Source of the DNA: Leucosporidium creatinivorum
Taxonomy: Eukaryota; Basidiomycota; Microbotryomycetes; Leucosporidiales; Leucosporidiaceae
Length of the DNA stretch: 64,000 nucleotides
NCBI GenBank assembly: GCA_001600635.1
Contig: BCKL01000006.1
Location: 1,125,696-1,189,695, forward strand
Direction of reading: 5' to 3'
Under the pieces are notes generated by a model. That model was not told the DNA's origin and did no database searches. It saw only the letters and a list, made by a program, of their open reading frames with translations. Positions 20,424 to 63,025 of the stretch are shown here, piece after piece. The position numbers were made by a program, and so were the translations under genes. Each line of letters opens with the position of its first letter. Positions within the stretch are counted from its first letter, which is position 1.

Positions 20424-21325
20424 TCATCCTTGCCTGCGCGAGATGCGCGTTTCGACGTAGCTGCGAAGAGCGTCACACCCGAAGCGAACGTCCTGCTCAG
20501 CATCGGTATCGACCCTCCCACGAAGGGCATCGACAGTTTGCTGAAGGCGACCCACTGCTCGTCGCAAGTGGTCGGCCTCGGGGGGCGGTTCGACGCCGGA
20601 GGGGGAAGTCTCATGGTGATCGAGGAGGGCGTAGAGGTACAGGGAGCTCTCAAGGACCGGCTGAAATGGGCGAGGGTCTGTATCCGACGCGGTGAGGCGG
20701 TAGTGGACTGGGAGCTCGAACGCGGTGACTTCGGCGAAAGGTCGAACTCGAGAGGCGGCCTTGTCGCCTTTGAGGTAGTAAGGGCAGAAGGTGAGTATGC
20801 ACAGGTCCCTTGTCCTTATAGTGATGTTGTGTTGGCCCGCCAAAACCTCGAGATCAGACTGGGAAGGCGAAAGAGTGAGCTGAGCATCAATGCGAGAGCC
20901 GAGCTTGCCAGGAGTCAGGACTCGTGGCGTCTTGAAGAGCAGGGTCGCGCGCTCGCGCTGTAGCAACTTCATACCTGAGGTCGAGCCCCGACATGTCTGT
21001 GCAGCTGAACATATAAGGCAACGAGCGAAGGCGGGCCAAAAGCGAGCGACTGACCGTGGCGATGGCTCAAAGAACAATCGACCTCCTCCTGCTTCAACGG
21101 CGGCTGTACCAAGGTGTCCTTTCCGCAGAGGTGCTTGTGCGTGACCCAGAGCTGTATGAGAGTAGCGATCCGACTCAGCGAGACGCAAACTGAGCGGTGC
21201 AGGCGGGTCGAGCTCACAAGCTTCTGGTGAGCCGCGCTGCAGAAGAAAAGCTTCGTACAGCCCGAGCAGCGTTGCTCTGTAGCCTTGCCGCACACTACAC
21301 ACTCCTTGTCCTTGAACGCTTCCGT
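20424..21325 (-). CDS. MYND-finger protein, type A, pair 1 (A1; canonical start lost)
   Basis: Encodes EAFKDKECVVCGKATEQRC, then SGCTKLFFCSAAHQKL, an intron, and LWVTHKHLCGKDTLVQPPL: a MYND zinc finger with ligands C-C-C-C-C-H-H-C. Further coding runs through SRIDAQLTLSPSQSDLEVLA and RDLCILTFCPYYLKGDKAAS to YVETRISRRQG, a helical C-terminus without a known domain. At the position where paralogs A3 and A4 have ATG, this copy has ACG (21,325-21,323). The only in-frame ATG upstream is 21,445, which overlaps the partner gene's ATG on the other strand. So either a longer N-terminus is used, or a non-AUG start, or the gene is decaying. MYND fingers usually mediate protein-protein contacts; the role here is unknown. 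Confidence 0.6.
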
Positions 21326-21443
21326 CCCGAGTCGAAGCTGAGCAGACGAGGTGAAGCGCAAGAGGGCAAGGGAGCTTAAGGGAGCGAGCGATTTCGTCTC
21401 TCTCCCTTCTTCCTCTCCCTCGTCTCTCGACTCGATTATAGGC
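21326..21443. promoter_or_regulatory. Shared spacer of MYND pair 1
   Basis: 118 bp between divergent genes A1 and B1. It shares with the three other spacers the words 'gagcagacgaggtgaa' and 'gcgagcgatttcgtctctct' followed by a CT-rich tract. Here the terminal element near B1 is 'tcgattatagg' in place of 'tcgactacagg'. Both promoters must lie in or across this spacer. A donor-like 'gtgaag', the pyrimidine tract and the terminal (c)tacag also look like a small 5' UTR intron for the B gene. Confidence 0.6.
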
Positions 21444-22432
21444 ATGGCGCCTGCCGCTAGGGAGTGCGCTGTCTGTCCTGCTACATCCAATCTCAAAGCC
21501 TGCTCTAGGTGCAAGGAGGCCTTCTACTGCTCTACAGACCACGCCAAGCTGGTGAGTCTGAGCTCGGCCCTTTGTCTCTCACGAGGAATAGCTCCTCTTC
21601 TTCCCCCACTTCGCACTCAGCTCATTCGTTCACCTACTTCACTACAGCTTTGGCCTCTGCACAAGACATACTGTGCTACAGGCGTCGAACCGTGGTTCGA
21701 GGACGACTTCACGACCGAGGAGGTCGCCTATCTGAATTCGGTCGATTCTCGTTGTGAGTGAGGCTGGTTCGCGTCACGCGACAGCGATTAACGATACACA
21801 TATAGTCGAGCTTCCACCAGTTGGGCCTAATCAGCCCGCACGTACCTTCCGAGCCATAGCTCGCCAACATTTCCCGCCGAGCACGTCGCCCGATGTCAGT
21901 GCTTCGCTGCTTCGCGCGAGCGTGCACCGCTGACTCTTCTTGTACGTTCTTACAGACTATGTGGGAGTCCACTTCCTTGAGTAAATGGACAGGCGAAGCT
22001 ATACTCCGATCCTGGATCATCTCCTTCGGCCGTCAATTCACGCTCTTCTCGTCGGGCGTTGGTAGGCTCCCTGACGGCACTCCAGCTTCTGATGCGCTCC
22101 CACAGCAGATGGGAGAGGTTCGGCTTTGGACTCTTCACCCCTCGTGGAATGCTTCACCCGCCGTGCACGACCTTCGCAGCAGGTTCCTTCGCCAGGCGCT
22201 CATCGTTTGCCATCTCCGAGATCATCGCCACCTCGAGGACGGCAGCCTCAGCCCCGAAGCTCACTGGAACGCCTGTTTTGCAGCCCGTCGTCTCGAGAAG
22301 GTGGCCGCCGAAGCAACTCTGAGAGAAAACGGACCTCTCGGACCGAGCTTGGTCGACTGCGCTAGAGGACTACGCTCGGCGCTAGAGAAGGACGGCCTCA
22401 AAAGTGGAGTACCGAGCTTTAGTCCTGTGTAA
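21444..22432 (+). CDS. MYND-finger protein, type B, pair 1 (B1)
   Basis: Starts MAPAARECAVCPATSNLKAC, then SRCKEAFYCSTDHAKL, an intron, and LWPLHKTYCATGVEPWFEDD. Ligands C8, C11, C20, C23, C29, H33, H41 and C45 form a MYND finger with His in place of the sixth Cys. Later exons give FELPPVGPNQPARTFRAIAR, WTGEAILRSWIISFGRQFTL, VRLWTLHPSWNASPAVHDLR, SRFLRQALIVCHLRDHRHLE and a helical end to PSFSPV. The C-terminal region resembles that of B3 (WTGDPLVRSLLISLGR; RLTTFHPTW; RLEQIA), so the B family has its own conserved helical domain. All introns have good splice sites and I see no break. Divergent from A1 over 118 bp; function unknown. Confidence 0.75.
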
Positions 22433-22894: not shown

Positions 22895-25039
22895 TTAGAA
22901 GGTGACCTTCTTGCCCTCGAAGGCGGCGGCGCCACCAGTGCGAGCGGAGCCGCGCGAGGCCCATCCAGAGTCTCCTCCGCCGCGTCCTCCACCACGTCCT
23001 CCACCGCGTCCTCCTCCACCACGTCCGCCACGGTCTCCACCGAAGCCTCCACGTCCTCCACCACGTCCTCCACCTGAGAGAGAGCAAGCAAGAGCGAAAG
23101 TCAGCGATCGAGCTCGGCGAAGACGAAAAGCTCGAGAAAGGCGACTAACCACGTCCTCCACGGTCACCTCCGAATCCACCACGTCCTCCACCACGTCCTC
23201 CTCCGCCACCCTGGCGGTCGGCGCGCGGCTGCGAGTAGTCGAGACGAACGGTGCGGCCCTCAATCGAGACACCGTCGCCCGAGGCGGTGGGTCCTCCCTT
23301 GGCGATGGCAGCCTCGGCTCCGTCGAGCGAAGAGTACTCGACGTATCCGAAGCCCTTGGGGCGGCCGGACTCGGAGTCAGTAGGGAGACGGACGGAGGAG
23401 ACACTGCGAGTTGGGAAGAGCGAGGTCAGCGAGCAGCTCGGCGAAGGCGCAAGCGGGAGAAATGAGCTCACTCTCCGAAGTCGGCGAAAGCGGACCAGAC
23501 GGCATCCTCAGTGGCGGAGAAGGGAAGGTTGCCGACGAAGAGGGTGGTGGTAGGGGGTCCGGAAAGGGTGTCGTTGAAGACCTTCTTGGGCTTGTCGCCG
23601 AAGGCGTTCTCACGGGGAGGGCGGGGCTGGGAAAGGTCGACCTTGATGGCGCGGCCATCAATCTCGTTGCCGGCCATCTCGAGGGCCTTCTGGGCGAACT
23701 CGGGCTTGGTGAACTCGACGTATCCGAAACCACGAGACTTGCCAGTGTCGCGGTCGGTGACGACGCGGGCCGAGACGACCTCGCCGCAGACCTCGAGCTC
23801 GGACTTAAGCCACTCGTTGTCGACGTTCCAGGAGAGGCCTCCGACGTAGACGGTGGTGGAGGGAACCTCGCCATCGGCGGTAGGGGCGGCCTCCTCGACC
23901 TTGGCCTTCTTAGCGGGGGCCTCGGTCTCCTCAGCAGCGCGCTTCTTGGAGGCGGGGGCGGCCTCGGCCATCTCGGTGTCCTGTATAGCAGAGGGGCTAG
24001 TTAGTTAGGCCTCGGAAGTTGAGAAGCGCCGAAGTAGAGCTCACCTCGTCAGACGAGTCGTCCGAAGAATCGTCCGAAGACTCCTCCTTCTTAGCAGCGG
24101 CGGGCTTGGCGGCCTCCTGTGGTGTAGCAGAGTCGTTAGTGTCGAGTCTCGAGGAGTAGACGCTCTCAAGTAGGCTCACCTCCTCGTCCGAAGAGTCAGA
24201 GTCGGAAGAAGACTCCTCCTTCTTGGCGGCGGCGGGGGCAGCAGCCTTGCCGTTGGCCTTCTTGGGGGCCTAGATAGATGTTCAAAGAACGAGGAGGAGA
24301 GAAGAGAAGCTAAAGTCAGTGTTTTGATCTTCGAAAAGGCGGGGACGAGCCCCGAAAAGCCAAACGCCGAAGCTAGAGAACTCACCTCATCCTCAGAGGA
24401 AGAGTCGTCCGACGAGTCGTCGGAGGAGTCCTCCTTGACAGCGGCGGCGACGGCGGCCTTGCCGTTGGCAACTGCCTTCTTGGCGACCTCGGTGGCCTTC
24501 TCGGCGACGGCCTCGACGGTCTTCTTGGCGGCCTTGACGGGCTGAAGTTGGCAGCAATAGGTAGTCAGCATGCTGTACATTAATATGAGTGACCGCCCTG
24601 ACTCCACAGCGCTCCTCGCTCACTCGAAATCGAGCGCGAGAAAAACGCGGCGAGGCAAAAACAAAGTGGTCGGCGAAGGCTAACTCACAGCAGCGGGCTC
24701 ATCGTCGGACGAGTCCGAGGAAGAGTCGTCCGAGGACTCGGGCTTGGGAGCGGGCTTGCTCTTCTCCTTCTTGGAGGCCTTCTTGTCGTCCTTCTTGCTC
24801 GACTTCTTGACGGGCTTCTCCTCCTCCGAGCTGGAATCAGAGTCGGACGAGTCGGAGGAGTCGACCTCCTTGGAGAGAGGGGAAGGGCCCTTCTTAGAGG
24901 CCTTGCCGACCTTGGCGGGCGAGGGAGCGGCCTCGTCCTTCTTGGTGGCAGCGGCGGTGGAGCTCGACTTGGTCTTCTTGGATCCCTTCTCGACCTTGGA
25001 GGTCTTGGGGGCCTTGACGGTGCTGCTGGTCTTTCCCAT
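22895..25039 (-). CDS. NSR1: Nucleolin-like protein (Gar2/Nsr1)
   Basis: N-terminal Lys-rich basic stretch (MGKTSSTVKAPKTSKVEKGS), several acidic Ser/Asp/Glu tracts separated by Lys/Ala segments, two RRM domains, and a C-terminal RGG region. RRM1 has TTVYVGGLSWNVDNEWL (RNP2) and KSRGFGYVEFT (RNP1). RRM2 has TTLFVGNLPFSATEDAVW and RPKGFGYVEYS. The tail is GGRGGFGGDRGGRG repeats ending EGKKVTF. This is the layout of nucleolin, Gar2 and Nsr1, nucleolar proteins needed for pre-rRNA processing and small-subunit assembly; acidic serines are typical CK2 targets. At least three short exons each end in an acidic Ser/Asp run, giving a modular look. Convergent with B1. Confidence 0.92.
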
Positions 25040-33395: not shown

Positions 33396-33505
33396 TATCC
33401 GTGCACTCATGTTGTGACCTAAGTAGCCCTCTTCACCTTCGCCGACCTCCATCGAGAGAAAGTTGCGAACGATATAGTTTCCCTTTTCTATCGCGCCGAG
33501 GCGCT

Positions 33506-34813
33506 CTAACCACCACCACTACGCTCTTCCGCCGCTCTAAGCTTCGCCCTCGATTCTCCCAATCCCACAACACCTTCATACACCGCCCATCCAATACCAG
33601 CGCTCCCTGCTTTCCTCACCACCCGCAGCCCTCCTCCTTCCCAAAAGCCTCGAATTCCTCCCGAGCGGTAGACGATGTTGATGGAGGTGAGGAGTGATGT
33701 ATATGTTTGAGGAGAGATTTGTCGCCGGGTTTTGATGAGGTCGAAAGGGGTGGTGAGCAGGGTGGAGAGTAGTGAAGCCGAGGCGCCTGCGAGCGGAAGG
33801 GTCAGTCTCGGCCGAGAGAGGGACGAAATCCAGCGAGGACTCACCTGCTACACCGCCTCCTACTGCTCCTCCTCCTCCATCGCCTCGGATACCCAAGATC
33901 CGCCGTCCTCGCTCGTAGAAGACGATGAACAGGCCGGCGCCGGGAGCGTCGCGAAGAGCTGTTGGTACGGCTCCTCGCCAGAGAGACTTAATGCCGCCTG
34001 ACGTATAGAGTTGGCGAAGAGCGGAGAAGGAAGAAGGAGCGGAGGCTGAGCCACGAGGGAGGGAAGTAGAGGACTGTCGCGAGAAGGGAGGGTCAGCGAC
34101 GAACGCCGAAGGGCCGAAAGCGAGACGACTCACCTCGGAAAGCGTCTTGAGGAGAGTGAAGGGCATTAAGATGAACCCTACGCCCGTGCGAGCAGTGCTG
34201 CCTACGAGCAGATCGCCTGCCGTCGTGAGCTTGACCTTGCCGCCGGCATTCGTCGGTAATGGCGCTCCCTTTGCTCGAAATTGAGGGAATTGGCCGACGA
34301 ATGTACGAAACCGTGAGAGCGTGAGGAAGTACATCGACACGCCGGGCACGTTGCTGATGAATGACGAAGGGGAGTCAACATCGGCCTTCGAGCCTGACGC
34401 AGAGCGAAAGCAGCAGCCGCTACGTACCGATACAGCGTAGGCGTAGTTCCTCGCCATAGACCTCTTGCTCCATCTGTTCGCACCACCTCCTTGACCGTCC
34501 CCCAGATCTTTGCCTTTGATTTGAGCCCCGCTTGCAGCTGCTCCTTCCCGACTTCGCCGACGGCTTTCGAAGTGGATGCTACCGGTCCATGCTCTTGCTG
34601 TACGCGAGTTTTAATGACTGTGCAGCTCTGCAGGTCAGCGGGCGAGCTCCAAAGGCCGTCGATGTAGAGCTCACGGTCAAGAGGCTGCAAGGCGAGAACG
34701 CTGGCTGCTCCCGAGACGGCGCCTGATGCGAGATGCCAGGTAGCGGAGAGTGGCACCTTCTTGTGTGTATCTAGCGGTGGCTGTTGACCGAGCTCGGCTG
34801 TCGACTTGGACAT
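33506..34813 (-). CDS. HEM25: Mitochondrial carrier, SLC25A38/Hem25 type
   Basis: Three carrier repeats are visible. Repeat 1: WHLASGAVSGAASVLALQPL followed after an intron by DVIKTRVQQ, the PxDxxKxR signature. Repeat 2: NVPGVSMYFLTLSRFRTFVG, LLVGSTARTGVGFILMPFTL and a degenerate LLKT signature, then IKSLWRGAVPTALRDAPGAG. Repeat 3: ASASLLSTLLTTPFDLIKTR, then GIRGFWEGGGLRVVRKAGSA. The VPGVSMYF and MPFTLLKT forms are typical of SLC25A38/Hem25, the inner-membrane glycine carrier that feeds heme synthesis. Start chosen at MSKSTAELGQQPP. At least four introns. Divergent from ARL2 over 288 bp. Confidence 0.85.
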
Positions 34814-35101
34814 GCGAAGATGAACGAGGAAGGCAAGGAGCGAAAGCGGTTCGGAGGGGGCGGTTGGGTCCAGGTCGCTATTGCTGCAGGGCTCGCTGAG
34901 GAGCAGAGGGCGGTCCGCTGTATCCACAGAATTCTCTGAGGCTGCTCCGCAGCTTGCTTGGGCTGCTTGGAACTCGCGAGCCCCTCCTCCTTTCGCGCCG
35001 CTCCGCCGAATCGCTCTATCTCTCCTGCTTCTCCCACGTCTCTTCGCTTGGCCTTGGTTCGGAACCCAAGAGCTACAGCTCACTGCTCGCTCCCTGCTGA
35101 G

Positions 35102-35993
35102 ATGGGCCTGCTCACCATCATCCGCAAGACACGGCTGAAGGAGAAGCAGATCCGTGTCCTGATGCTGTGAGTTGCCTCTTGCTGCCCGCTGACAGCTTCG
35201 GGCGACGAGCTCAACCTTTCTTCGCATCTACAGGGGACTCGACAATGCTGGCAAGACGACCATCGTTAAGCGCATCCTCGGCGAGGACGTCAACGAAGTC
35301 TCGCCGACTCTGGGCTTCAACATCCGCACCATCATCCATCAAGGCTACTCACTGAACGTCTGTAGGTGATCTTCTACTACTGGGCTACCTCCCACTGCTC
35401 TGCTGACCGCTGCCGACGTCTCGCAGGGGACATTGGAGGCCAAACCTCGCTCCGACCTTACTGGCGCAACTACTTTGAGACGACGGATGCTGTGATCTGG
35501 GTGGTGGACTCGAGCGATAGGGAGAGGATGGAGGACTGTCGGCGAGAGCTGAGGGAGCTGCTGCAGGAGGAGGTGAGCTCGTTCTTTCGGCTCCGAGCCC
35601 TTTCGCCGACTTGCTAACCCCTCGCTTTCTCGGTGCAGAGGCTATCGGGAGCCAGTCTGCTCGTCTTCGCCAACAAGCAGGACATTGCGGGAGGGATGAC
35701 GAGCGCGGAAATCTCGGCGGTGAGCTTCCTCTTGAGCTCGGCGATGGCGCTCCCGCTGACCTCTTCCTCTCGCGCAGGCTCTCCAACTCCCTTTACTCCT
35801 CTCTCACACCTCACATATCCAAGCATGCTCAGCAAGATCAGCTTCGACGACCGAAGGCGACCAGCGGATATGGGATGGCCTTGACTGGGTCGTCAAGGAG
35901 GTCGCAAGGAGGGTCTACTATGGCACCGGAGGGGGCATGCCAATGGCTAGTGAGGTGCAGGGTAAGGTGACGAGGTCGTCGTTGGATGTATGA
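35102..35993 (+). CDS. ARL2: ARL2-like small GTPase (Cin4/Alp41)
   Basis: Five exons encode about 185 residues: [20 protein letters not shown] (Gly2 present), the P-loop [29 protein letters not shown] (switch I Thr), [20 protein letters not shown] (switch II), [38 protein letters not shown] (the NKxD motif), and a last exon with [20 protein letters not shown] (the SA motif), [16 protein letters not shown] and a tail ending SSLDV. ARL2 acts with tubulin-folding cofactors in microtubule assembly. All GTPase motifs are intact. The sequence from 35,672 (within the NKxD exon) to the 3' end is present again, inverted, at 47,057-47,380. Confidence 0.93.
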
Positions 35994-36900
35994 GTGTCTC
36001 GGGTTCGACGTTGAGCAATCTCTGTTGTACATTAGTGAGCTTCTCGACTCAGCTTCGGCGTTCGACTCGCGCTGACTTGCGCTCCTTCTCGGGCTCCCTC
36101 AGTCCTTGCAAACCGCCGATCTCGTTTCAACCTCATTCTACCTGCGATCGTAGGTACTGGCNNCNATCCTTGCCACCTTCTTNGCCATCTCGGGGGTCAT
36201 ANGCGAGCCTGCTGGGTTCAAGCTGCGCTGAAGGCCGCCGTGTANGTCCTTCATNANCCCCTCACTNTTCGAGCCAANGTGCGGCTCTATGCTGTGGAGA
36301 AGGGCCCCAATCTTGGTANGGCACGCCTCGGCGAAGTTGACCTCGGCCTCCCCCTCGAGGTGACTGTTGAACGTCTTGGCGGCGAGTTGCAGGTAGCATT
36401 GATAGGCCAGGCGCTTGAGAGTTTGGTGGATACTGTATGGGAGCGTTACAGCCTCAGGATCGCGGTCTCGCATGTACAGGCGATGCTCGACGAAGGCGAC
36501 GAGGGCGAAGGCGAGGAGGGGGAGCTGGCGAGGATTGGGTCCGTATCCAGTGTACATGGTGCCGACGCACTGCTTGCGCATGGTGACGATCATGAAGGGC
36601 ATGGTCGAGAGCTTGAGAGCGTAGTCCGTCTGTACACACGAGGCAGTTTTCGTCAGCTCGGCGTTGATCCTCGAGGCGCAGAAGAGACGAACCTGGCCAA
36701 ACTTGTCATGCCAAAACTTCTGCTTCTCCGCCATCATACCTGTAGACGGCACTGTAGGATGGTCAGTCTGGAGAACTTTTATCTGTCAGCGAGTCAACTC
36801 ACCCAGGTACTAGGCCCACTCCACCTCGGCGTCGGTGAGCGCTGGAGGGCTGTACTCCTCTTTCCCGCAGAGGTGCTGATGAATCGGCCAGAGCTATAGT
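35672..36900 (+). repeat. Left arm of a ~1.2 kb near-identical inverted repeat
   Basis: Covers the last two ARL2 exons, the ARL2/A2 intergenic bases and the 3' half of MYND gene A2. The same sequence occurs in reverse at about 46,150-47,380. Positions add to about 83,050 (for example N at 36,162 pairs with N at 46,888), so the arms are colinear. Even the scattered N occupy matching positions. Identity is near complete through ARL2 and the A C-terminus and falls off gradually toward the MYND exons. Confidence 0.9.
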
Positions 36901-37070
36901 AGAGCAGTAACCTCGTCAGCAAAAGACGCACTCGAACGCTCCACCGCGCTTCGAGGACTCACCAGCTTCTGATGCTCCTGGCTGCAGACGTACAGCTTCT
37001 TGCACTGCAGGCAGGCGTTCTTGGAGAACATCCCACACACCACACATTCCTTGTTCTGGAACGGTTCCAT
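36138..37070 (-). CDS. MYND-finger protein, type A, pair 2 (A2; internal stop)
   Basis: Starts MEPFQNKECVVCGMFSKNAC, then LQCKKLYVCSQEHQKL, an intron, and LWPIHQHLCGKEEYSPPALT: the MYND finger. The second exon continues DAEVEWA and then reads TAG where paralog A3 has GAG (Glu). Beyond it the gene is colinear with A3: exons with STGMMAEKQKFWHDKFGQ, TDYALKLSTMPFMIVTMRKQ, LLAFALVAFVEHRLYMRDRD, SIHQTLKRLAYQCYLQLAAK and a C-terminus ending ASTYDRR, containing N bases. Unless the stop is a sequencing error, the product is only the finger plus about 20 residues. A3 gives the full-length comparison (about 270 residues). Shares a 114-bp spacer with B2. Confidence 0.6.
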
Positions 37071-37184
37071 TCCTGTAGTCGAGCTTGAGCAGACGAGGTG
37101 AAACGTAAGAGGGCAAGAGAGGGAGCGAGCGATTTCGTCTCTCTCCCTTCTTCCTCTCGCTCGTCTCTCGACTCGACTACAGGA
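37071..37184. promoter_or_regulatory. Shared spacer of MYND pair 2, bounded by 17-bp inverted repeats
   Basis: 114 bp between A2 and B2. A perfect 17-bp inverted repeat covers both start codons: 37,067-37,083 is the reverse complement of 37,172-37,188 (ctcgactacaggaatgg). The inner part has the family words 'gagcagacgaggtgaaacg' and 'gcgagcgatttcgtctctct' and a CT tract. In pairs 1, 3 and 4 the A-side end is 'tcgagtc' or 'cgagtcgaag' instead, so the A2 leader looks replaced by the B leader. Confidence 0.65.
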
Positions 37185-38143
37185 ATGGCGACTGCTACTC
37201 GGGAGTGCGCTGTCTGTCCTGCTACATCCAATCTGAAGGCCTGCTCTAGGTGCAAGGAGGCCTTCTACTGCTCTACAGACCACGCCAAGCTGGTGAGTCT
37301 GAGCTCGGCCTTTCGTTCGCCCCGAGGAATAGCTCCTCTCTTCCCCCACTTCGCACTCCGCTGACTCGCTCTTCTGTACTCGACTACAGTTCTGGCCTCT
37401 GCACAAATTCTTTTGTGGAACAGGCGTCGCTGTGTGGGAAGAACCCGAGCTCACTAGCGCCGAGCTCGAAGCTCTTCGGGCTCTGGAAGAATGTTGGTGG
37501 CTCGATTTCTCGCCTTTAGGCTTCGCTGACCTTTGCACCTCTGCTTAGACCGCTCGCCTGGGCTGCTGACTGTCTGCGACGTCAAGGACGTACTCGGTCT
37601 GTACGTTCCGTGGTGGCCGAAGGTGAGTCTGTGTCTCGCGCGCTTTGTGCACACCATCGTCGTGCTGAAACCACTCACATCTAGCACGACATCTGGTCAA
37701 CTCCGTCGGACCCCCGCTGTACGCCTCGCGAGCTCCACTGGGTTCGCGCAGCCAGCCGTGAGGTTCTCGAAACGAACCGAGCGCACTTTGACATCGTTGG
37801 GCAGCAGTCCGCGCCTTGCGCCATTCCCGCCCCCCTCGAAAACGACCGACCCACCCCGGGCGCCTCCCCTGCACGAGCTAGGCTCTACAGGCCCTCATTC
37901 ACCGGCTCGCAGGGCGACGAGCTCCAACACCGTTTCCTCGCTCAACTCCTCATCTACGACTACCTCATTCGACGCACGGACGGCAATGGCCGACCGGACT
38001 GCAGCACAAGAGAAGGGCGTGATCGAGTTTCAACAGCTGTCCGCAGGCTCCTTGCTCTGGCTGAAGAGGGCCGAAAGACGATGGACAGGCAGGGGCACGA
38101 GACTTTGAGCAGAATGTCGGCCCCCGCTGAGTATCTCATCTAA
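37185..38143 (+). CDS. MYND-finger protein, type B, pair 2 (B2)
   Basis: MATATRECAVCPATSNLKAC, SRCKEAFYCSTDHAKL, intron, FWPLHKFFCGTGVAVWEEPE: a complete MYND finger with the same His ligand change as its relatives. Further exons give LTSAELEALRALEE, a short exon with KDVLGLYVPWWPK, and a long last exon: HDIWSTPSDPRCTPRELHWV, REVLETNRAHFDIVGQQSAP, LQHRFLAQLLIYDYLIRRTD, VRRLLALAEEGRKTMDRQGH, ending SAPAEYLI. The C-terminal layout matches the orphan copy and B4. No break seen. Head-to-head with A2. Confidence 0.72.
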
Positions 38144-38611: not shown

Positions 38612-39586
38612 ATGGCACCGACCAAGGAATGCGCACTATGTCCATCTATCGACGTGAAAGCCTGCTCTCGATGTAGAGAAGCCTATTACTGCTCTACAGA
38701 GCATGCCAAGTTGGTGAGCTCGGGCCTCCCCACACGCCTCCCCACACGCGCTGAACTCGCTTTTGTTCTCCCTCGCCTGCTTTTCTACAGCTATGGCCGG
38801 TTCATAAGAACTTCTGTGGAAAGGATGTAGAGCTGTGGTATGAAGAAGAGCTCACCAAGGGCGAGGTTGAGGCTCTTGACGCTCTCGGAGATCGTGGGTC
38901 TCTCTCGCTCGGCTCGCAAGCCACGCTCTGGCTGATGGCATCTCTCTGCTCGCAGATCACTGCTCAGAGTGTAACGTCAGTGCACCAGCCATGAGGAAAG
39001 TGCTTCCTGAGTATCTGCCAGGCTGGCCCGAGGTGAGCTTCGGCTTTACCCTCATCTTTGGCTCCGCTCGTCTGCTAACTCCCTAGACCTCCAACAGAGC
39101 CTCTGGACATTTCCTGAAGCCTCTCCTCCATCTTCCACCCCCCGCCTCCAAAGTTGGGTCCGCTCCAATGGCCGACAGCTCCTCTTCGACATCACCGAAG
39201 CGCACCGCTCGATCGGGAAGAGCCACCTACTGCCGTGCATCAACTCCCCAATCCCTAAGCACAACTCTGAGCTCCCCGTCTCCGCCCGAGGGTCGACTTT
39301 TCATCCCAACTCTACACCCTCACCGCTCGGCGAGCTTTTCATCCGCCGTTTCTTGGTGCAGGTGTTCAATTTTGATCATCTTGTGAGAGTGGTGGAGAGG
39401 AATGGGCCTATTGTGGATATGAGCTTTGAGGGATTGGGGCATGTCAAGGTTGTGTTGGATAGATTGAGGAAGATGGAAGCGGAGAGTAAGAGCGTGCTGC
39501 AGTTGACGGGTCAGAGGGGCGTTAAGATGGTGTTGATGAGGATGGAGAATGTGTTGAATGATATGACGAGGGGGATTTGTCTTTAG
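38612..39586 (+). CDS. MYND-finger protein, type B, orphan (no divergent partner)
   Basis: MAPTKECALCPSIDVKACSR, CREAYYCSTEHAKL, intron, LWPVHKNFCGKDVELWYEEE: a full MYND finger with His at the sixth ligand. Later exons: LTKGEVEALDALGDR, CSECNVSAPAMRKVLPEYLP, then SLWTFPEASPPSSTPRLQSW, VRSNGRQLLFDITEAHRSIG, LGELFIRRFLVQVFNFDHLV, RLRKMEAESKSVLQLTGQRG and an end at MTRGICL. The C-terminal pattern follows B2 and B4, though more diverged. All introns look usable. It lies in tandem after B2, so a B-only tandem duplication is likely. Confidence 0.7.
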
Positions 39587-44879: not shown

Positions 44880-45868
44880 CTAACTGATCCTGCAGTCTGG
44901 CTCGCTCGTCACCTTGTCCCAATCCTCCTGCAGCGCGGGTCGGTGTCCCTTCGCAAACTCAACGATGCCCCTGCCGACGGCTCCATGCTCGGGCGTGTCA
45001 GCTTCGCGAGCAATCTGCTCGAGTCGCGTGACAGCCAGCCAGGTGTAGGACCACATCTCCTTATCGACGCCGAGTGCTGCCATGGCCTTCGTTTCGAAGT
45101 AGCGAGCCAGGATGACTTGGTGGAGGAATTTGGCGCGGAGCTCGAGGAAAGTAGGCGCGGTCTTCCAAGTCGGGTGGAAGGTGGTCAGGCGTACATTCGA
45201 TATGATGAGCCATAGACTGGCCATGCCGTCGACGACGTCCCGGGGGTTGCGACCACCTCCGAGTGAAGCGGTGAAGTAGGTGTGCCGGCCGAGCGAGATG
45301 AGCAAGGAGCGGACGAGGGGGTCTCCAGTCCACGTGGCCGACGAGAGCGAGTTCCAGATGTGCTATAAGTGGTAAGGAGGGCGTCAGTGTCTATCGCACT
45401 GAGCAGACGAGCTTGAAAGCTCACCTCGGGCCTGATGTTCGACGGAGCCATGTCGCGTATGATCTCTTTCAAGGGGTAGTACAGCACCCCCTCGGGGATC
45501 AGAGAGGCTGTGAAGATGGCTCAGGCGAAGCTCGTTGTTCCGGAACAGCGATCACTTACGGTCAGCTGCGAATCGCTTGATGTTCTCGATCTCGTCGGTC
45601 GTCAAGTCGTCCTCGAACCACGGCTCGACACCAGTCGCACAGAAGCGCTTGTGCAGAGGCCAGAGCTGTAGTGGTGCAGACGAGCGAGTCAGCGGAGTGC
45701 GAAGTGGGGGAAGTGAGGAGCCTCTCCTTGGGGCGAACGAAGGGCCGAGCTCGAACTCACCAGCTTAGCGTGTTCTGTAGAGCAGTAGAAGGCGTCCTTG
45801 CACCCAGAGCAGGCCTTGAGGTTGGTTGTAGCAGGACAGACAGCGCACTCCCTAGCAGTAGTTGCCAT
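44880..45868 (-). CDS. MYND-finger protein, type B, pair 3 (B3)
   Basis: MATTARECAVCPATTNLKAC, SGCKDAFYCSTEHAKL, intron, LWPLHKRFCATGVEPWFEDD: a MYND finger. Further exons: LTTDEIENIKRFAAD, SLIPEGVLYYPLKEIIRDMA, HIWNSLSSATWTGDPLVRSL, LISLGRHTYFTASLGGGRNP, SLWLIISNVRLTTFHPTWKT, LRAKFLHQVILARYFETKAM, TWLAVTRLEQIAREADTPEH and an end at SEPDCRIS. It aligns along its length with B1 (WTGEAILRSWIISFGR; LHPSWNASPAVHDLRSRFL). No break seen. Faces A3 over 108 bp, in mirror orientation to pair 2. Confidence 0.75.
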
Positions 45869-45976
45869 TGCTGTAGTCGAGCTGAGAGACGAAGGAGAGG
45901 AAGAAGGGAGAGAGACGAAATCGCTCGCTCCAGCGCTCCCTTACGTTTCACCTCGTCTGCTCAGCTTCGACTCGAA
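45869..45976. promoter_or_regulatory. Shared spacer of MYND pair 3
   Basis: 108 bp between B3 (minus) and A3 (plus). Read on the minus strand it carries 'gagcagacgaggtgaaacg', then 'gcgagcgatttcgtctctct' and the CT tract, ending 'tcgactacagca' at the B3 ATG. It is the mirror of the pair 2 spacer, slightly shorter between the two core words. Confidence 0.65.
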
Positions 45977-46912
45977 ATGGAAGCGTTCAAGGCCAAGGAG
46001 TGTGTAGTGTGTGGTGCAGCTACCACCAAGACCTGCTCGGCGTGTAAAAAGCTGTTCTTCTGCGGTCCAGAGCATCAGAAGCTGGTGAGTCCTTAAGAGG
46101 CGGTGCAGCCGTTTGAGTGCGTCTTCTGACCTCGGCTCGCTACTCTACTACAGCTTTGGCCAATACACAAGCACCTCTGCGGCAATTCGGACTACATGCC
46201 TCCACCGCTCACCGACGCCGAGGTGGAATGGGCCGAGAGTCTGGGTGAGTTGACTCGCCGACAGATAAAGGTTCTCCAGGCTGACCATCCTACAGTGCCG
46301 TCTACAGGTATGATGGCGGAGAAGCAGAAGTTTTGGCACGACAAGTTTGGCCAGGTTCGTCTCTTCTGCGCCTCGAGGATCAACGCCGAGCTGACCGGAA
46401 CCGCCGCCTCGTGTGTACAGACGGACTACGCTCTCAAGCTCTCGACCATGCCCTTCATGATCGTCACCATGCGCAAGCAGTGCATCAACACCATGTACAC
46501 TGGATACAGACCCAATCGTCGCCAGCTCCCGCTCCTCGCCTTCGCCCTCGTCGCCTTCGTCGAGCAGCGCCTGTACATGCGAGACCGCGATCCCGAGGCT
46601 GTAACGCTCCCATACAGTATCCACCAAACTCTCAAGCGCCTGGCCTATCAATGCTACCTGCAACTCGCCGCCAAGACGTTCAACAGTCACCTCGAGGGGG
46701 AGGCCGAGGTCAACTTCGCCGAGGCGTGCCNTACCAAGATTGGGGCCCTTCTCCACAGCATAGAGCCGCACNTTGGCTCGAANAGTGAGGGGNTNATGAA
46801 GGACNTACACGGCGGCCTTCAGCGCAGCTTGAACCCAGCAGGCTCGCNTATGACCCCCGAGATGGCNAAGAAGGTGGCAAGGATNGNNGCCAGTACCTAC
46901 GATCGCAGGTAG
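45977..46912 (+). CDS. MYND-finger protein, type A, pair 3 (A3)
   Basis: MEAFKAKECVVCGAATTKTC, SACKKLFFCGPEHQKL, intron, LWPIHKHLCGNSDYMPPPLT: the MYND finger. Then DAEVEWAESLG, STGMMAEKQKFWHDKFGQ, an intron ending at about 46,418, TDYALKLSTMPFMIVTMRKQ, LLAFALVAFVEQRLYMRDRD, SIHQTLKRLAYQCYLQLAAK, AEVNFAEAC and a C-terminus with several N-derived unknown residues ending ASTYDRR. This is the intact counterpart of A2. The C-terminal domain is helical and unlike A4 at the residue level. About 270 residues. The role is unknown; MYND fingers normally bind proline-rich peptides. Confidence 0.75.
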
Positions 46913-55455: not shown

Positions 55456-55645
55456 CTTTCTGTCTTAGATCTTGTAGCCTTCCTTTTCACTTCTGTCTGT
55501 AGCCCTTTCCACTCCCCTCGCATTACCTATAATCGACTGCACTGCATGTGCGAGTTCCTCGTTCTCGTTCGGATGTTCACCGAGAGCGCTCAACTCGGCG
55601 AAGGCAAGGTCCGAGATCGAATTGGTGAGCAGAACCAGCTGCAGT

Positions 55646-57775
55646 CTATTCCATCGTACCAAGAGCCTCCTTGGCCACCTCTCTAAGCTCAGCGACCTTC
55701 TCCTTCCCCTCCACCGCCTCCTTCAGCACCTTTCTCACTCCCGCCTCCTCCACCCCCTTCCTCCCCCTCTCCTTCCACGCCTCATCGTTCGCCGCTCCCA
55801 CACCATTCGCCACCGACCTCAAGACATCGTATGCTCGATGTCTCAGTCCTTCTTGATCCTCCTCGGCGACGAGAGCGAGGAGGATCTCCAATCCTCGAGG
55901 GTAGAGCGCGAGGGTGAGGGCGAGAGTCGGCTCCATAGCGAGAGAGGTGAGAGCCCCTGAGGCTGCTAGTCGAGTTTGAAGGTCGGGAGAAGAGGCGAGG
56001 GCGATGATGAGGTGAAGATGGGAGGTCGGTGAAGGAGCAGCGTCGGTGGGTCGAGGGTTTGATGGGAAGGGAGTAGCGGCGTAGTGCTCGAAGCCGGGTT
56101 GCGAGGCGACGAGATTGCACATGAGCTCTGTGGCTGCTCGTCGGACCATCGTGTTGCTGCTCAGCATCAGCTCCTCGACGATAGCGAGCAGCTTGCGCCC
56201 TCCTCCTGCCGAGTCGTCCGAGCTCGGCTTGAGCTTGACGCCGGCTACCACCGCGGCGTCGAGACTGGCGATGTTGGTGAGCGCCATGAGGCACTCGAAT
56301 TTGACGAGGAGGCCGGTCCCGCCGCCGCCAAAGTCCTCCTCGTTAGCTACGGCGAGCGGAAGGGTGAGGGCGTTGATGCCTTCGGCGAGGAGAGGGGAGG
56401 AGGCTGATGGACCGAGAACGAAAAGCGGGTTGGTGGTGATGAGGAGCTTAGCGAGGGCTTGGACGGCGAAGACGTCTTCGGTAGGGTTGAAGGGTGTGGG
56501 AATCTGGCGGACGAGGGTGAGGGCGAAGCGAGCGATGCCGCCTTGCAGCAGGGTGCCGCGAAGGGTGGTGGGAGTGACGAGGGAGAGCGTGATACGGGCG
56601 GCAAGTCGGCGGCATGCGAGTGATGGGGAAAGGCAGAGCTGTCGCAGAGTGGGAAGAGGCAAGTGCGAGACGATAAGGGAGACTCGAGTCGTGACGGAGG
56701 AAGTGAGCTCGGGCTTGGGCGGCGTGGCGGTCTTCTGCTTTGCTGATGCGAAGGCCTTGAGCCGGTTGATCTGCGCTGCCTCTCCTTTGGCGTCGACCGG
56801 TGGTGGGAAAGCGGTGAGATGGTCGAGCAGGGTTGCGACGGCGAAATCGAGGGGACTCGATGAGGTCGGGGGAGTGGTGGCTGGAAGGAGGCTGAGGAGC
56901 GCGTCGAGGAGTGGTCCCGTAGCGATCGCTGGTTTGATGGTGGGCGAAGACACGAGAGTGAGGTAGGCCATGCCTTCGAGGCAGGCGAGGAGGGTTTGAG
57001 TCGTGCTCGGCTCGAGGGTGATGGTCGCCTTCTCCTTAGTCGACGGCGCAAAGGAGGTGAAGAGCTTGACGAAAAGTACAGCGAGCTGGGGAAGGGTCCA
57101 CTTCGATGGCAGCTCCTTTGTCTCCGAACCCTCCGCCGAGCCTCCCTCTTCTGGCTTCTCGGTGCCGAGGCGGAGTTTGACGATCCCCACCGCTGCCAGC
57201 GCCGTGATCTGGACCTCCTTCTCCAGCACATCTTGACTCGGTTCTCCCACCACACTCTCCAGCCATGGCACAGCCGACGCTCGAATCTGTGCACGAAGAG
57301 CGCTCTGACCGGCTGCGAGCGACAGCAGCTCGACGAGCGCGAGCCGCTCTCCTCCCTTGCCCGACTTGGATGCCGTGGGGCTCGTGATGTATTCGACTGC
57401 CTCCTCGAGGTTCTTCCGGACGGCGCCCTCCTTGAGATAGCTGACGGCGAGGGAAGGAGCGACTTGGAGGACAGCGCTGAGCGTGGAGAGGCCGACGACG
57501 AGGTCGGTCGAATCGGTACCAGCTAGGCGATCCTCTACAGCTGTTCGGAGCGAGTCGAGCGTAGACTTGGTCGGTGAGGGGGTGAGAGCGCGGGCGAGGA
57601 GGACGAGGGCGAGGGTGCGTTCTGAAGGGGCCGAGGCGGGCGTGAGGGCGGGAAGGATGAGCTGGAGGTCGTCCTTGTTGAGCGAGAGAGGTGCAGAGCG
57701 TGCTAGGATCGCCTTGAGCTGCTCCTCCAAGCTGCTACCGTCGCTGCTGCTCGTCGTTGGCGCTGTTGAGCTCAT
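55646..57775 (-). CDS. SHE4: UCS-domain myosin chaperone (UNC-45/She4/Cro1)
   Basis: One exon of 709 residues from MSSTAPTTSSSDGSS. The protein is built of armadillo-like helical repeats. Diagnostic pieces are LVVGLSTLSAVLQVAPSLAV, VQITALAAVGIVKLRLGTEK, TLLACLEGMAYLTLVSSPTI, VFAVQALAKLLITTNPLFVL, LLVKFECLMALTNIASLD, MLSSNTMVRRAATELMCNLV and RLAASGALTSLAMEPTLALT, near the C-terminus. This matches the central and UCS domains of fungal She4/Rng3/Cro1, which fold and stabilise myosin motors for endocytosis, actin cables and cytokinesis. As in other fungi the TPR domain of animal UNC-45 is absent. The start is eight bases after a CTACAG that probably ends a 5' UTR intron. Convergent with the GT2 gene. 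Confidence 0.85.
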   Translation of the reverse strand: MSSTAPTTSSSDGSSLEEQLKAILARSAPLSLNKDDLQLILPALTPASAPSERTLALVLLARALTPSPTKSTLDSLRTAVEDRLAGTDSTDLVVGLSTLSAVLQVAPSLAVSYLKEGAVRKNLEEAVEYITSPTASKSGKGGERLALVELLSLAAGQSALRAQIRASAVPWLESVVGEPSQDVLEKEVQITALAAVGIVKLRLGTEKPEEGGSAEGSETKELPSKWTLPQLAVLFVKLFTSFAPSTKEKATITLEPSTTQTLLACLEGMAYLTLVSSPTIKPAIATGPLLDALLSLLPATTPPTSSSPLDFAVATLLDHLTAFPPPVDAKGEAAQINRLKAFASAKQKTATPPKPELTSSVTTRVSLIVSHLPLPTLRQLCLSPSLACRRLAARITLSLVTPTTLRGTLLQGGIARFALTLVRQIPTPFNPTEDVFAVQALAKLLITTNPLFVLGPSASSPLLAEGINALTLPLAVANEEDFGGGGTGLLVKFECLMALTNIASLDAAVVAGVKLKPSSDDSAGGGRKLLAIVEELMLSSNTMVRRAATELMCNLVASQPGFEHYAATPFPSNPRPTDAAPSPTSHLHLIIALASSPDLQTRLAASGALTSLAMEPTLALTLALYPRGLEILLALVAEEDQEGLRHRAYDVLRSVANGVGAANDEAWKERGRKGVEEAGVRKVLKEAVEGKEKVAELREVAKEALGTME

Positions 57776-58411
57776 CTCGCGGTCTGTAGGTTGAATAGCG
57801 GTCAATGTGAGCTACAGCTGTAAGACCCGCGTGCCTTCTCCCCAGCAGCTGGCTCTCGAGCTCCCTCGAAAGGCCGTGAGGAGCTGAAGCCAGCGCTCAG
57901 GCCTGAGAGAGGTCGCGATTGACTCACTTTGGTGCAGAGGCAGGAGTTCCGAGAGCAGCAGACAGTCTGTAGGGTATCAAAGAGCTTTCCTCCAAGCTGC
58001 TGTAGCCGAGTCGACGGAACGAGCGAATAGTAGCAGACGAAGAAGCGACGTGAGCAGCTCGACCACCTTCTGTGGCTGTCGATGCCGCTGTTGGGGGCTG
58101 AGCCAGCTGAAGAGCAGCCGTAGGATCATATAGGAGCATTGATGTAGCCTTGCATGCTCTGCGAGCCATCAGAGCCGAGCTACCCCTATCGTTCCAGCGC
58201 CGAGCCGAGCCGACTTCGCGCGGCGACTTCGGCTACAGAGAACGAGTGCGGGATGTCCGCCGTAAGAAGACTGGCCGATCACGTGAAGACAACTTCCACG
58301 AAAGGAAGCCAAGCAAAGAGATCACCACGCGACGAAGGCTGAAAGGGCCGCCGGCGGAGACGGCAACCTCTCTTTACCTCCTATATCTCGCTCGTCTCAC
58401 ATCTCGACTAG
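57776..58411. other. Divergent promoter region
   Basis: 636 bases between UNC-45-like and MATE-like starts. CTACAG at 57,784-57,789 (minus strand) precedes the UNC-45 ATG. No other gene is seen. Confidence 0.5.
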
Positions 58412-60670: not shown

Positions 60671-61044
60671 GCAGGTCTTTGGCAAAGGCAGAGTCAGTTT
60701 AGACATTCTACTTCTCCCTTTCCTTTATATCAGACCCTGTGCTAGGAAGGCGGCAGGCAGCGCATGCGCTGACCTTTAGCTATTGCGAGGCGAAGTGCGA
60801 GCGAAGGAACGCCGAGCTGATCGCCTGTAGAGAACGTGAGGGCGGGAGAGGGCTCAGGCGCTCGGCGAGCGCCGGCGAGCTTTCACCGAGACTTCGCCAT
60901 TGGCTCTAGGGGGGTGCAGATGAAGGTGGTGTGATGCAGCGAAGATCTGTATTTGAAATACACGAATCCGACATGAACCTATCCCACTGCAGCTCCCCCC
61001 TTGGAGAGTCGTCGAGGAGGCGACCACTGCCAGCGGCCCTCGGA
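60671..61044. other. Intergenic, convergent gene ends
   Basis: 374 bases between the MATE-like and A4 stops. Contains 'cgctcggcgagcgccggcgagc', a GC-rich partial palindrome near 60,860. No gene seen. Confidence 0.5.
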
Positions 61045-61924
61045 TTAGGCGACGCGTAATCTGCGCATCACCTGTTGACAGATTTGAAAAGCTTCTAGCA
61101 CTTGCGCGTCCTCTTGTTTGTCCTCAAACAAGTTGTCGAGCCTGTCGAACGCTCGCTGGGCATATTCGACGCAGACAGCGGTGGGAAGGTCGGGATTGGA
61201 GACGATGGATGCGCGACCGTGTATGTGCTGAGCACCGAGAGTGAAGAGGATCGTAGCAAGCTGCAGGGCAGTGCTGCGCTGCCCAATTGCGAGGGAGCTC
61301 TTGCTGAGGTAACCCTCGACGAAGGCGAGCTCGGCGAAGATGGCGAGGTCGACTCTCGGGCCCTTCAAGGAGGATGAGGGGCAGTCGAGAATAAGGAGGG
61401 TTGTCCTAACTTTCCAAGTCTCCTCCAGGGATGCCGTGTAGTGCTGTACATCCTCCTATCGACTGGGAAGGGTCAGCGTCGGTCGCGGGGCACTAGTAGT
61501 TGGCTCGGAGCTACCTTTCTGAGCGGCTCGCGTAGCTTATTTCGCGGCCCTCGTCTGAGCAACGAGCGTTCTACACACTCCGGAGAGTCGTCAGCATGCT
61601 TTCGAGTAGCCAAAGCGCGTGCAGCCGGCAGAACTCACCGTCGTCTTCGTGCGAAAGCAGCCAGGCCGCTTCGTCGTCGGTGAGCGGCGGCTGCTCAAAG
61701 TGCTCCTTTCCACAGAGGTGCTTGTGCGTGACCCAAAGCTGTAGTGCAGCAGCGAGCGAAATCAGCGAAAGATGCACTCGACGGCTGCACCGCTCTCTTC
61801 GTCTCCCAGGACTAACCAGCTTCTGATGCTCTGGACTGCAGAAGAAGAGCTTCTTGCACGCCGAGCAGGTCTTGGTGGTAGGTGTGCCACACACTACACA
61901 CTCCTTGTCCTTGAATGCTTCCAT
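61045..61924 (-). CDS. MYND-finger protein, type A, pair 4 (A4)
   Basis: MEAFKDKECVVCGTPTTKTC, SACKKLFFCSPEHQKL, intron, LWVTHKHLCGKEHFEQPPLT: MYND ligands C9, C12, C20, C23, C29, H33, H41, C45. Then DDEAAWLLSHEDD, a short exon ERSLLRRGPRNKLREPLRK, and a last exon EDVQHYTASLEETWKVRTTL, LILDCPSSSLKGPRVDLAIF, AELAFVEGYLSKSSLAIGQR, ALQLATILFTLGAQHIHGRA, YAQRAFDRLDNLFEDKQEDA and a C-terminus QQVMRRLRVA. All phases join cleanly, giving about 236 residues. The finger exons are very close to A1 and A3; the C-terminus is quite different from A3. Faces B4 over 112 bp. Confidence 0.78.
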
Positions 61925-62036
61925 CCCGAGTCGAAGTTGAGCAGACGAGGTGAAGCGCAAGAGGGCAAGGGAGCGAGCGAGCGATTTCGTCTCTCTCCCT
62001 TCTTCCTCTCGCTCGTCTCTCGACTCGACTACAGGA
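61925..62036. promoter_or_regulatory. Shared spacer of MYND pair 4
   Basis: 112 bp between A4 and B4. On the plus strand: 'cccgagtcgaagttgagcag', 'acgaggtgaagcgcaagagg', then 'gcgagcgatttcgtctctct', a CT tract and 'ctcgactacagga' abutting the B4 ATG. It differs from the pair 1 spacer at few positions. A gtgaag donor-like site and the final ctacag could define an ~85-base 5' UTR intron of B4. Confidence 0.65.
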
Positions 62037-63025
62037 ATGGCGACTGCTACAAGGGAGTGCGCTGTCTGTCCTGCTACAACCGATCTCAAGGCCTGCTCTA
62101 GGTGTAAAACGGCCTATTACTGCTCTACAGAACACGCCAAGCTGGTGAGTCTGAGCTCGGCCCTTTGTTCGCCCCGAGGAGAAGCTCCTCTCTTCCCCCA
62201 CTCTGCACTCCGCTCACCTGCTCGTCTAATCTGCTACAGCTCTGGCCTCTACACAAGAAGTACTGTGCTTCAGGTGTTGAGCCGTGGTTCGAGGAGCCGC
62301 TGTCGGCCGACGAGCTCGAGGCGATCCGTTGTCTAGACGAAGGTTTGTTCTCGGCTATTCTGTAGCCTTCTAAAACTGTCCTGATTGATCTTACTCGTCG
62401 TGAACATTGCGCAGAGATCGATGATGAGCCGGGTGTAGTCAACCTCAAGCGGCTCGTCCAGCAGCGATTTCATTCGTGGCCCGAGGTGAGCTTATACGCC
62501 GAGCATCTTACAGACGTCTCGCGCTGACCAATCGGGTTGTTCAGGATATTTCGTCGTTCCCTGATCTTACTCGAGCGAGCTGTACCGAGCGCATAGTCCA
62601 CTGGATGCGCACCATGATTCGTCAAGTGCTCGGCAACGTCAGCGTTCAACCATCCGCCGCCGCAACTGGCAGGCTTCCCTGTCGCCCGTTCACAACCATC
62701 GGGAAGATTAAGCCTCTTTGATGGACTTGGTCTTGCGTTGAGTTACCACCCCGGTTGGCCATGGAGTGCAGAAGCCGACGCACGCCGCCGAAACTTTCTC
62801 GTCCACTTCGCCATCTTCGATTATCTCGCGACGCAAATCTCGCGTACTTCGACAGCATCACGGGATAGCTCCAGGGACGATGAGGAGCGGTTCATGGAGC
62901 TTGCGGTGGTCAGGCTGGAGAAGCTGGCAGAGGAGCATTCGCTGGGCGACGACGCTGCGGAGTCAGCGTTGAGGCTCATCTTGCGGGCCGCTCGTAGTTT
63001 ACTAGAGTCTTCTCGAATGCTGTAG
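62037..63025 (+). CDS. MYND-finger protein, type B, pair 4 (B4; probable frameshift)
   Basis: MATATRECAVCPATTDLKAC, SRCKTAYYCSTEHAKL, intron, LWPLHKKYCASGVEPWFEEP: MYND ligands C8, C11, C20, C23, C29, H33, H41, C45. Later exons: LSADELEAIRCLDE, EIDDEPGVVNLKRLVQQRFH, then DISSFPDLTRASCTERIVHW with MRTMIRQVLGN. In this frame a stop follows at about 62,719. The family C-terminus (RRRNFLVHFAIFDYLATQIS; FMELAVVRLEKLAEEHSLGD; end SLLESSRML) continues in another frame from about 62,640. No plausible intron links the two, so this is a frameshift or a sequencing error. If real, the protein lacks its last ~110 residues. Confidence 0.65.

Follow-up and report, generated by a model that had tools for sequence, protein, structure and literature searches.

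Head-to-head MYND-finger genes in Leucosporidium creatinivorum: a subtelomeric array with a conserved shared start region and divergent tails

Layout and gene plan of the array

The stretch of 64,000 bp analysed here (the window) is part of contig BCKL01000006.1, below C6, of the basidiomycete Leucosporidium creatinivorum, and it contains an array of genes with a MYND zinc finger. The genes are of two related types, A and B, and most of them stand head to head in A/B pairs on a short shared promoter. The assembly analysed comprises 27.7 Mb in 63 contigs; C6 has a length of 1,242,253 bases and the window corresponds to C6:1125696-1189695. An absence of carotenoid genes has been reported for L. 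creatinivorum (PMC12093110), and crtI gave no match above the cut-off here, with five short matches below it. Genes and pairs are named after their kb position on C6 or in the window. The four divergent A/B pairs that an earlier note had described from this DNA, at 21.3-21.4, 37.1, 45.9 and 61.9-62.0 kb, and the lone B gene at 38.6 kb are all present (Table 1). The same note spoke of nine MYND genes; there are nine loci, and the three proteins tried, two of them from the window, all have the finger, but the genes are not all intact, as A21 has ACG for ATG, A37 a stop codon and B61 a loss of frame.

The A/B family continues to the left and right of the window. Almost every A- or B-type finger that was found falls at 957-1214 kb of C6, within 286 kb of the contig end, which carries TTAGGG repeats (six hexamers in the final 1.5 kb). 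This region contains 13 A-type and 12 B-type genes or remnants, counts that are lower bounds. Ten head-to-head pairs (957, 965, 981, 1040, 1121, 21, 37, 45, 61 and 1208) and five unpaired genes (A1066, A1072, A1119, B38 and B1213) are found on C6, and the head-to-head pair is therefore the usual unit of the family. Random placement of the genes, repeated 2000 times, gave a mean of 0.13 and a maximum of three head-to-head A/B pairs closer than 400 bp, against the ten observed (the 1213 gene was still typed as A in this run, which does not affect the pair count). Pairing of A with B exceeds chance, and the family is one of subtelomeric fungal MYND-finger genes, most of which form A/B pairs around a common start region about 110 bp long.

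The distance from start to start is 108-118 bp in all eight pairs measured, out of ten. The promoter of pair 61, used as a query, found 11 sites on C6, which are those of the ten pairs, its own included, and that of the orphan A1072; two partial matches were found on C11. A1072 has kept the far side of the shared promoter, no B gene is visible beside it, and it looks like a pair minus its partner. The head-to-head partner of A1119 is an ARF-family gene and not a B gene. Partial copies of the stretch that holds this ARF-like gene (C6:1118111-1119191) lie at C6:1160687-1161775 and 1172665-1173075, downstream of A37 and A45, and the stretch may have travelled with the A37 and A45 units.

In all, 21 genes were modelled, nine in the window and 12 outside it, and 19 of them follow one plan of four exons, the introns being in phases 0, 1 and 0. 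Exon 1 comprises 36 codons (34 in B38) and ends inside the finger, where the phase-0 intron claimed for all nine window genes was confirmed in each. Intron 2 (phase 1) and intron 3 (phase 0) are common to eight of these nine. Exon 2 opens in most genes with the second half of the finger (LW..HK..C), exon 3 is short, and exon 4 encodes about 130-170 codons. The two genes off the plan are A21, in which a clear donor for intron 3 is missing, and B1040, in which the junction of exons 2 and 3 is ambiguous; both have the usual exons 1 and 2. Since the exon plan is common to A and B, the two types probably descend from one ancestor, as had been proposed.

The Pfam domain zf-MYND (PF01753) was found above the 22.7-bit cut-off in all three spliced proteins scanned, B45 and A61 (E-values in Table 1) and A1040 (E 4.9e-8). 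It was the only Pfam match above the cut-off in these three, with no SET domain, no homeodomain and no chorion protein, and three further tails gave no Pfam match above the cut-off either, which makes six tails scanned in all. A profile search of the PDB matched B45 to the finger of SMYD2 (E 1e-4, residues 7-49). The finger is thus shared with MYND-finger proteins including SMYD, but membership of the SMYD (SET and MYND) methyltransferases was rejected, because the three proteins are without SET and the match of B45 is confined to the finger. In the same type of search the A tails gave coiled-coil matches only, with E 0.084 or worse, and the B tails one match, with E 0.12. The one comparison of an A-tail with a B-tail profile gave a probability of 6% and E 0.006, which does not establish that the tails are related. 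No relatives were found in viral contigs (B query) or in genome contigs (A query), collections that are not specifically fungal. A copy-number row for zf-MYND is given in PMC4469406, and the term MYND is absent from PMC12093110.

Table 1. Genes and shared promoters of the MYND array in the window (E, exon; positions are those of the window)
Feature	Position	Strand	Exons and remarks
A21, type A MYND gene, probably a pseudogene	20424-21325	-	E1 21218-21325, E2 21055-21151, E3 about 20935-20996, E4 20424-20858; ACG at the usual start; intron 3 without GT donor as modelled
Shared promoter of pair 21, 118 bp	21326-21443		between the start positions; found by the pair-61 promoter query
B21, type B MYND gene, open	21444-22432	+	E1 21444-21551, E2 21648-21753, E3 21806-21894, E4 21956-22432
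A37, type A, stop codon in exon 2	36138-37070	-	E1 36963-37070, E2 36803-36893, E3 about 36693-36751, E4 36138-36629
Shared promoter of pair 37, 114 bp	37071-37184		found by the pair-61 promoter query
B37, type B, open	37185-38143	+	E1 37185-37292, E2 37390-37492, E3 37549-37622, E4 37685-38143
B38, unpaired type B, open	38612-39586	+	E1 38612-38713, E2 38791-38893, E3 38956-39032, E4 39098-39586; shared promoter not found there
B45, type B, open	44880-45868	-	E1 45761-45868, E2 45560-45665, E3 45425-45507, E4 44880-45362; Pfam zf-MYND E 4.3e-10
Shared promoter of pair 45, 108 bp	45869-45976		found by the pair-61 promoter query
A45, type A, open	45977-46912	+	E1 45977-46084, E2 46154-46244, E3 46296-46354, E4 46421-46912; Ns in exon 4
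A61, type A, open	61045-61924	-	E1 61817-61924, E2 61639-61738, E3 61515-61570, E4 61045 to about 61443; Pfam zf-MYND E 1.2e-9
Shared promoter of pair 61, 112 bp	61925-62036		source of the promoter query
B61, type B, frame lost in exon 4	62037-63025	+	E1 62037-62144, E2 62240-62342, E3 62415-62485, E4 62545-63025

Conserved 5' core and divergent tails

Identity was calculated by segment for the eight paired B genes (28 comparisons) and for 11 A genes (54 of 55 comparisons, A37/A45 omitted), against means of 0.45-0.50 for shuffled sequences. In the paired B genes, the 60 bp that precede the ATG reach an identity of 0.918; exon 1 follows with 0.897, intron 1 with 0.822 and exon 2 with 0.627. Beyond this the values are 0.505 in intron 2, 0.495 in exon 3, 0.519 in intron 3, 0.512 in exon 4 and 0.485 in the 200 bp downstream. 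The corresponding values of the A genes are 0.800 upstream, 0.763 in exon 1, 0.675 in intron 1 and 0.617 in exon 2, followed by 0.537 in intron 2, 0.464 in exon 3, 0.523 in intron 3, 0.500 in exon 4 and 0.482 downstream. In a multiple alignment of eight units this appears as a hill of likeness, with its top from about 150 bp before to about 150 bp after the B start codon and with a lower, more gradual A side.

The pairs resemble one another over a core of about 600 bp, most clearly on the B side. This core comprises the promoter, exon 1 and intron 1 of both genes and the part of exon 2 that encodes the finger. The sequence beyond the core is old and private to each gene, A37/A45 excepted. The high conservation claimed earlier for the finger exons therefore holds for B (mean 0.90) but not for A, in which it is moderate (mean 0.76). 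The strong divergence claimed for the C-termini was found in most tails, which are near chance, but not between A37 and A45. The tails of the eight modelled pairs are 18-43% identical in the A genes and 21-38% in the B genes, against 97% for A37/A45.

Intron 1 is better conserved than exon 2, the coding exon that follows, which makes selection on the protein hard to invoke. The four-fold sites of the six paired B genes with an open exon 4 have an identity of 0.896 (0.850-0.950) in exon 1, 0.560 in exon 2 and 0.289 (0.192-0.392) in exon 4, where about 0.30 is expected by chance. The two parts of one gene seem, from these comparisons, to differ greatly in age.

The unpaired genes served as controls. 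Paired B genes are on average 3.79 changes per site apart in their tails; the mean is 3.94 between B38 and the paired genes and 3.91 between B1213 and the paired genes, and as distances of 2-5 changes per site are saturated, equal divergence is here a coarse statement. For the 5' ends the same means are 0.169, 0.681 and 1.275, which places the two unpaired genes four to eight times farther away. The pair of values for single genes can run in opposite directions: B37 and B38 are 2.02 apart in the tails and 0.84 in the 5' ends, and B37 and B981 are 4.56 and 0.13 apart. Among the A genes, the unpaired A1119 and A1066 have 5' branches of 0.74 and 1.07, against a median of 0.093 over all 13 A rows, and A1072, which has kept the promoter, has one of 0.085. 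Divergence of the B tail thus has no visible relation to pairing, and heads that resemble one another are those of genes with the shared promoter. As the tails of B38 and B1213 are as diverged as paired tails and only the paired 5' ends are close, the tail would be old and the head homogenised.

The phylogenetic trees of the two parts differ. In a nine-gene tree the B tails form two fully supported groups, one with 37, 38, 61 and 1208 and one with 981, 1040, 1121, 21 and 45. The 5' tree is nearly star-like and the two groups are not visible in it. Distances between B 5' ends and between B tails are not correlated over the eight pairs (r -0.35). Nor is there a correlation between A-tail and B-tail distances in a Mantel comparison of the eight pairs (r -0.04, and with pair 37 removed r 0.34, p 0.11). 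The proposal that the unit copies as a pair is not supported by this last result, from a comparison that the earlier note had itself named as a refutation and that is weak with eight pairs.

Pairs 37 and 45 share 1.77 kb at 92%, the A tail included, and have B tails near chance. Exon 4 of A37 and A45 is 98% alike, the following 200 bp are 100% alike, and ambiguous bases (N) occur at identical positions in both. The shared stretch, with its A tail, looks like one recent copy, a reading to be treated with care because of the matching Ns, which make incomplete separation in the assembly possible. Ns at matching positions are also present in near-identical duplicates on C31, and may mark near-identical copies left unseparated by the assembler (compare window positions 36138-36630 and 46421-46912).

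Explanations for the conserved core

The likeness of the 5' core is probably the result of promoter-centred ectopic gene conversion over a paired array of the silkmoth chorion kind described below. Lying between the two start codons, the shared promoter would be a recombination start site in the middle of each pair. Non-reciprocal copying between pairs would most likely begin at breaks in it, fade with distance and keep the core alike, and ectopic repair of this kind would leave a hill of likeness flanked on either side by private tails. The tails would escape copying either because homology is gone or because conversion of the tail is selected against. In budding yeast, recombination is initiated close to the sites where transcription starts and declines towards the gene interior (PMC6215864). 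The pairs also decay, with one partner often broken.

MYND domains bind protein partners in well-studied proteins. ZMYND8 is an example of a MYND protein with partner binding (PMC13196413). By analogy, it is a fair guess, but only a guess, that the array proteins share a docking head and differ in their private tails. More tentatively, the process may yield MYND adaptor proteins that have a putative docking finger and putative expression in common, while each tail would serve a different partner.

Several observations weigh against conversion. No conversion tract was seen directly in the single genome compared. The tail distances are saturated, as said, and the unpaired controls are four genes only. 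The paired genes A965, A37 and A1040 have longish 5' branches of 0.34, 0.28 and 0.24. On the A side the identity at four-fold sites is 0.565 (0.445-0.730) in exon 1 and 0.466 (0.389-0.542) in exon 4; these intervals overlap, and the case therefore rests mostly on the B genes. In approximately unbiased (AU) tests the tail-based groups were not rejected on the 5' DNA (p 0.113, 0.119, 0.156, 0.329 and 0.403), nor was one 5'-based group rejected on the tails (p 0.213). Old signal is present in the 5' ends, since B38 joins B61 of the same tail group in a ten-gene 5' tree (85/87) and A1119 clusters with A37, A45, A61 and A1208 in the A 5' tree (97/98). The A and B 5' distances of the eight pairs are not correlated (r 0.04), and chromosomal distance does not predict 5' similarity (r 0.10, p 0.33). 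Finally, in all 28 comparisons on the B side the likeness breaks off where the finger ends, within a narrow interval (211-271 nt from the ATG), as is equally expected from a cassette or from selection on the finger. This edge may be the end of homology, the result of selection against tail conversion or a cassette border, and the three options are not separated.

Constraint alone, with purifying selection on a DNA or RNA function holding the promoter, leader, intron 1 and finger and no transfer between pairs, is an unlikely explanation. It agrees with the position of the edge at the finger end, and a shared bidirectional promoter is expected to be constrained, but intron 1 (0.82) is above the coding exon 2 (0.63), the four-fold sites of B exon 1 are 0.90 alike, and no Rfam family was found at gathering score in the window. 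The absence of this likeness from the unpaired B38, B1213, A1119 and A1066 also argues against it, although a constraint specific to pairs would explain that too.

A single recent spread of a promoter and finger cassette onto old tails, by exon shuffling through template switching and with no ongoing exchange, is not a likely account either. The nearly star-like 5' tree and the narrow edge are what it would give. Introns 2 and 3 are present in the same phases in 19 of the 21 modelled genes, however, and the tails would therefore already have belonged to this MYND family, and the A side is a slope rather than a step.

A further explanation, compatible with gene conversion, is that the A and B proteins of a pair act together as an obligate heteromer, as in the ves or homeodomain mating pairs, and that pairs are kept for matched expression or matched partners. 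The ten pairs on one shared promoter and the known analogues speak for it. At least one member is visibly broken in six of the ten pairs, however, and the partner looks open in five of these six. B957 and B965 both have an exon 1 of 97 nt that is out of frame, and pair 1121 is broken on both sides, A1121 by a stop and B1121 by a loss of frame; the remaining three are A21 (no ATG and a missing donor), A37 and B61 in the window. Both members are open in pairs 981 and 1208, pair 45 is open with Ns in A45, and pair 1040 is open except for its ambiguous exon 2/3 junction. The unpaired A1119 has lost its frame in exon 4. Sequencing or assembly errors may be behind some of the breaks. With broken members in six of ten pairs and no signal of co-duplication in the tails, obligate partnership is doubtful, and as an explanation of the array it is quite improbable.

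Diversifying selection on the tails for recognition of variable partners, which the earlier note had favoured and which agrees with the low tail identities given above, is improbable. The unpaired B tails have diverged about as far as the paired ones, and closeness at the 5' end is confined to paired genes. Introns 2 and 3 and the 3' flanks beside the tails are near chance identity too, and the four-fold sites of B exon 4 are random. Saturation bars the use of the ratio of nonsynonymous to synonymous rates (dN/dS) on the tails, which tempers this judgement. Accelerated tails are not supported, and the interpretation shifts from fast tails to a homogenised head.

Comparable systems, second MYND family and neighbouring sequence

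The layout had been thought to be without a described parallel, but silkmoth chorion genes, Babesia ves genes and Abp pairs have it. The closest is the silkmoth chorion locus, where 21 HcA/HcB pairs lie 330 nt apart, the common promoter between the TATA boxes is more than 90% identical, and gene conversion has been proposed (PMC4639761). The chorion genes resemble the MYND array in having two related types, head-to-head pairs, a short common promoter and a small first exon, in having unpaired members and pseudogenes among the pairs, and in that the promoter and first exon are most alike. They differ in encoding structural proteins of the insect eggshell and in the conservation of the long second exon (82% and 73% on average), whereas the MYND array has tails near chance identity and other genes between the pairs.

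In Babesia bovis about half of the ves1alpha/ves1beta family is in about 33 divergent pairs with quasi-palindromic bidirectional promoters, the rest being unpaired, and segmental gene conversion is described (PMC7485966). The layout is like that of the MYND array, but the ves products are surface antigens of a parasite, and conversion there alters what they encode to give antigenic variation; nothing points to a role of this kind for the MYND array, and a quasi-palindromic promoter is not established in it. Such a promoter would go with an origin of the pair by inverted duplication. The A and B halves of the shared promoter are 0.655 alike, compared with about 0.48 after shuffling, and zero or one of 500 shuffles reach the observed value in each of the eight pairs. 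Nine other leaders of the genome, four of them from unpaired family members, are 0.50-0.67 alike to the A or B side, near the value for the half promoters. Promoter arms in three stretches are either short and 72-75% complementary or absent.

The mammalian Abpa-Abpbg secretoglobins are also of two related types and mostly in head-to-head pairs, and the authors favour recent duplication of pairs and argue against conversion (PMC2291036); the MYND array differs from them in its saturated tails with alike heads. In basidiomycetes, the HD1/HD2 regulators are divergently transcribed pairs (PMC4915694), and the HD1 and HD2 homeodomain proteins heterodimerise (PMC8545103). They are divergent pairs in fungi, as here, but the three scanned MYND-array proteins have no homeodomain. 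A literature search on MYND terms found no description of head-to-head MYND arrays in fungi, which is not proof of absence. The layout is thus known from other families; here it occurs in zinc-finger genes of a fungus whose genome has a second family arranged likewise. A more general warning follows: where heads are conserved and tails divergent, the heads may have been homogenised, and diversifying selection on the tails is not a necessary conclusion.

The second MYND family has the finger near the C-terminal end of a protein of about 315-410 amino acids and is also arranged in head-to-head pairs, eight among 21 hits on C31 and two among seven on C11, with fingers 2240-2399 bp apart. The intergenic block of one pair recurs at all eight C31 pairs, its own included, and partly by two lone members, and the block of another pair leads to the same ten places. 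The lone members at 76 and 107 kb of C31 retain part of the shared promoter. Between unlike pairs of the eight units compared, the alignable DNA is mainly a central block and short finger blocks; the like pair 184/233 aligns over 1.46 kb. With near-identical comparisons omitted (2 of 15 and 2 of 21, and for the second finger figure 1 of 15), the distal finger has identities of 0.63 and 0.59, and three coding segments have 0.51-0.54. Upstream, the identities are 0.55 and 0.64 at 120-240 bp and 0.51 and 0.57 over the nearest 120 bp. On these figures the second family would be a supporting case with a modest contrast and not a clean test.

A wider reading, possible if rather doubtful, is that concerted evolution has the divergent promoter itself as its unit, so that two MYND families, one with the finger first and one with the finger last, would separately have become paired arrays in which recombination keeps the promoter alike and the proteins diverge. 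If this were true, promoter-initiated conversion would be a general way to hold a large family under one regulatory head with its members exploring new tails, and the new tails could possibly serve self/non-self or partner recognition. Together with the second family, the array could serve as a test case for the idea that gene conversion is driven by shared promoters and that such promoters keep the genes of a family in step.

Elsewhere in the genome, two A-like copies at C2:16001-18300 and C50:42301-44600 are 96% alike over 1.7 kb, and their finger frame continues from upstream without the usual ATG. Two inverted segmental duplications lie among the pairs on C6, one of 3.8 kb at 98.7% (1042561-1046314 with 1058081-1061840) and one of 4 kb at 92.7% (1088063-1092106 with 1113982-1118003), and the open reading frames in both are not MYND-like. 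Pfam gave no match for ten of the 16 window open reading frames scanned between or beside the pairs. Ordinary genes matched there are UNC45-central (55646-57805), PPR (9337-12252), mitochondrial carrier (33576-35227) and MIF4G-like (14003-15960). Beside pair 21, the minus strand of window positions 22895-24000 seems rich in RGG-like repeats, as judged by eye, and is perhaps a gene for an RNA-binding protein.

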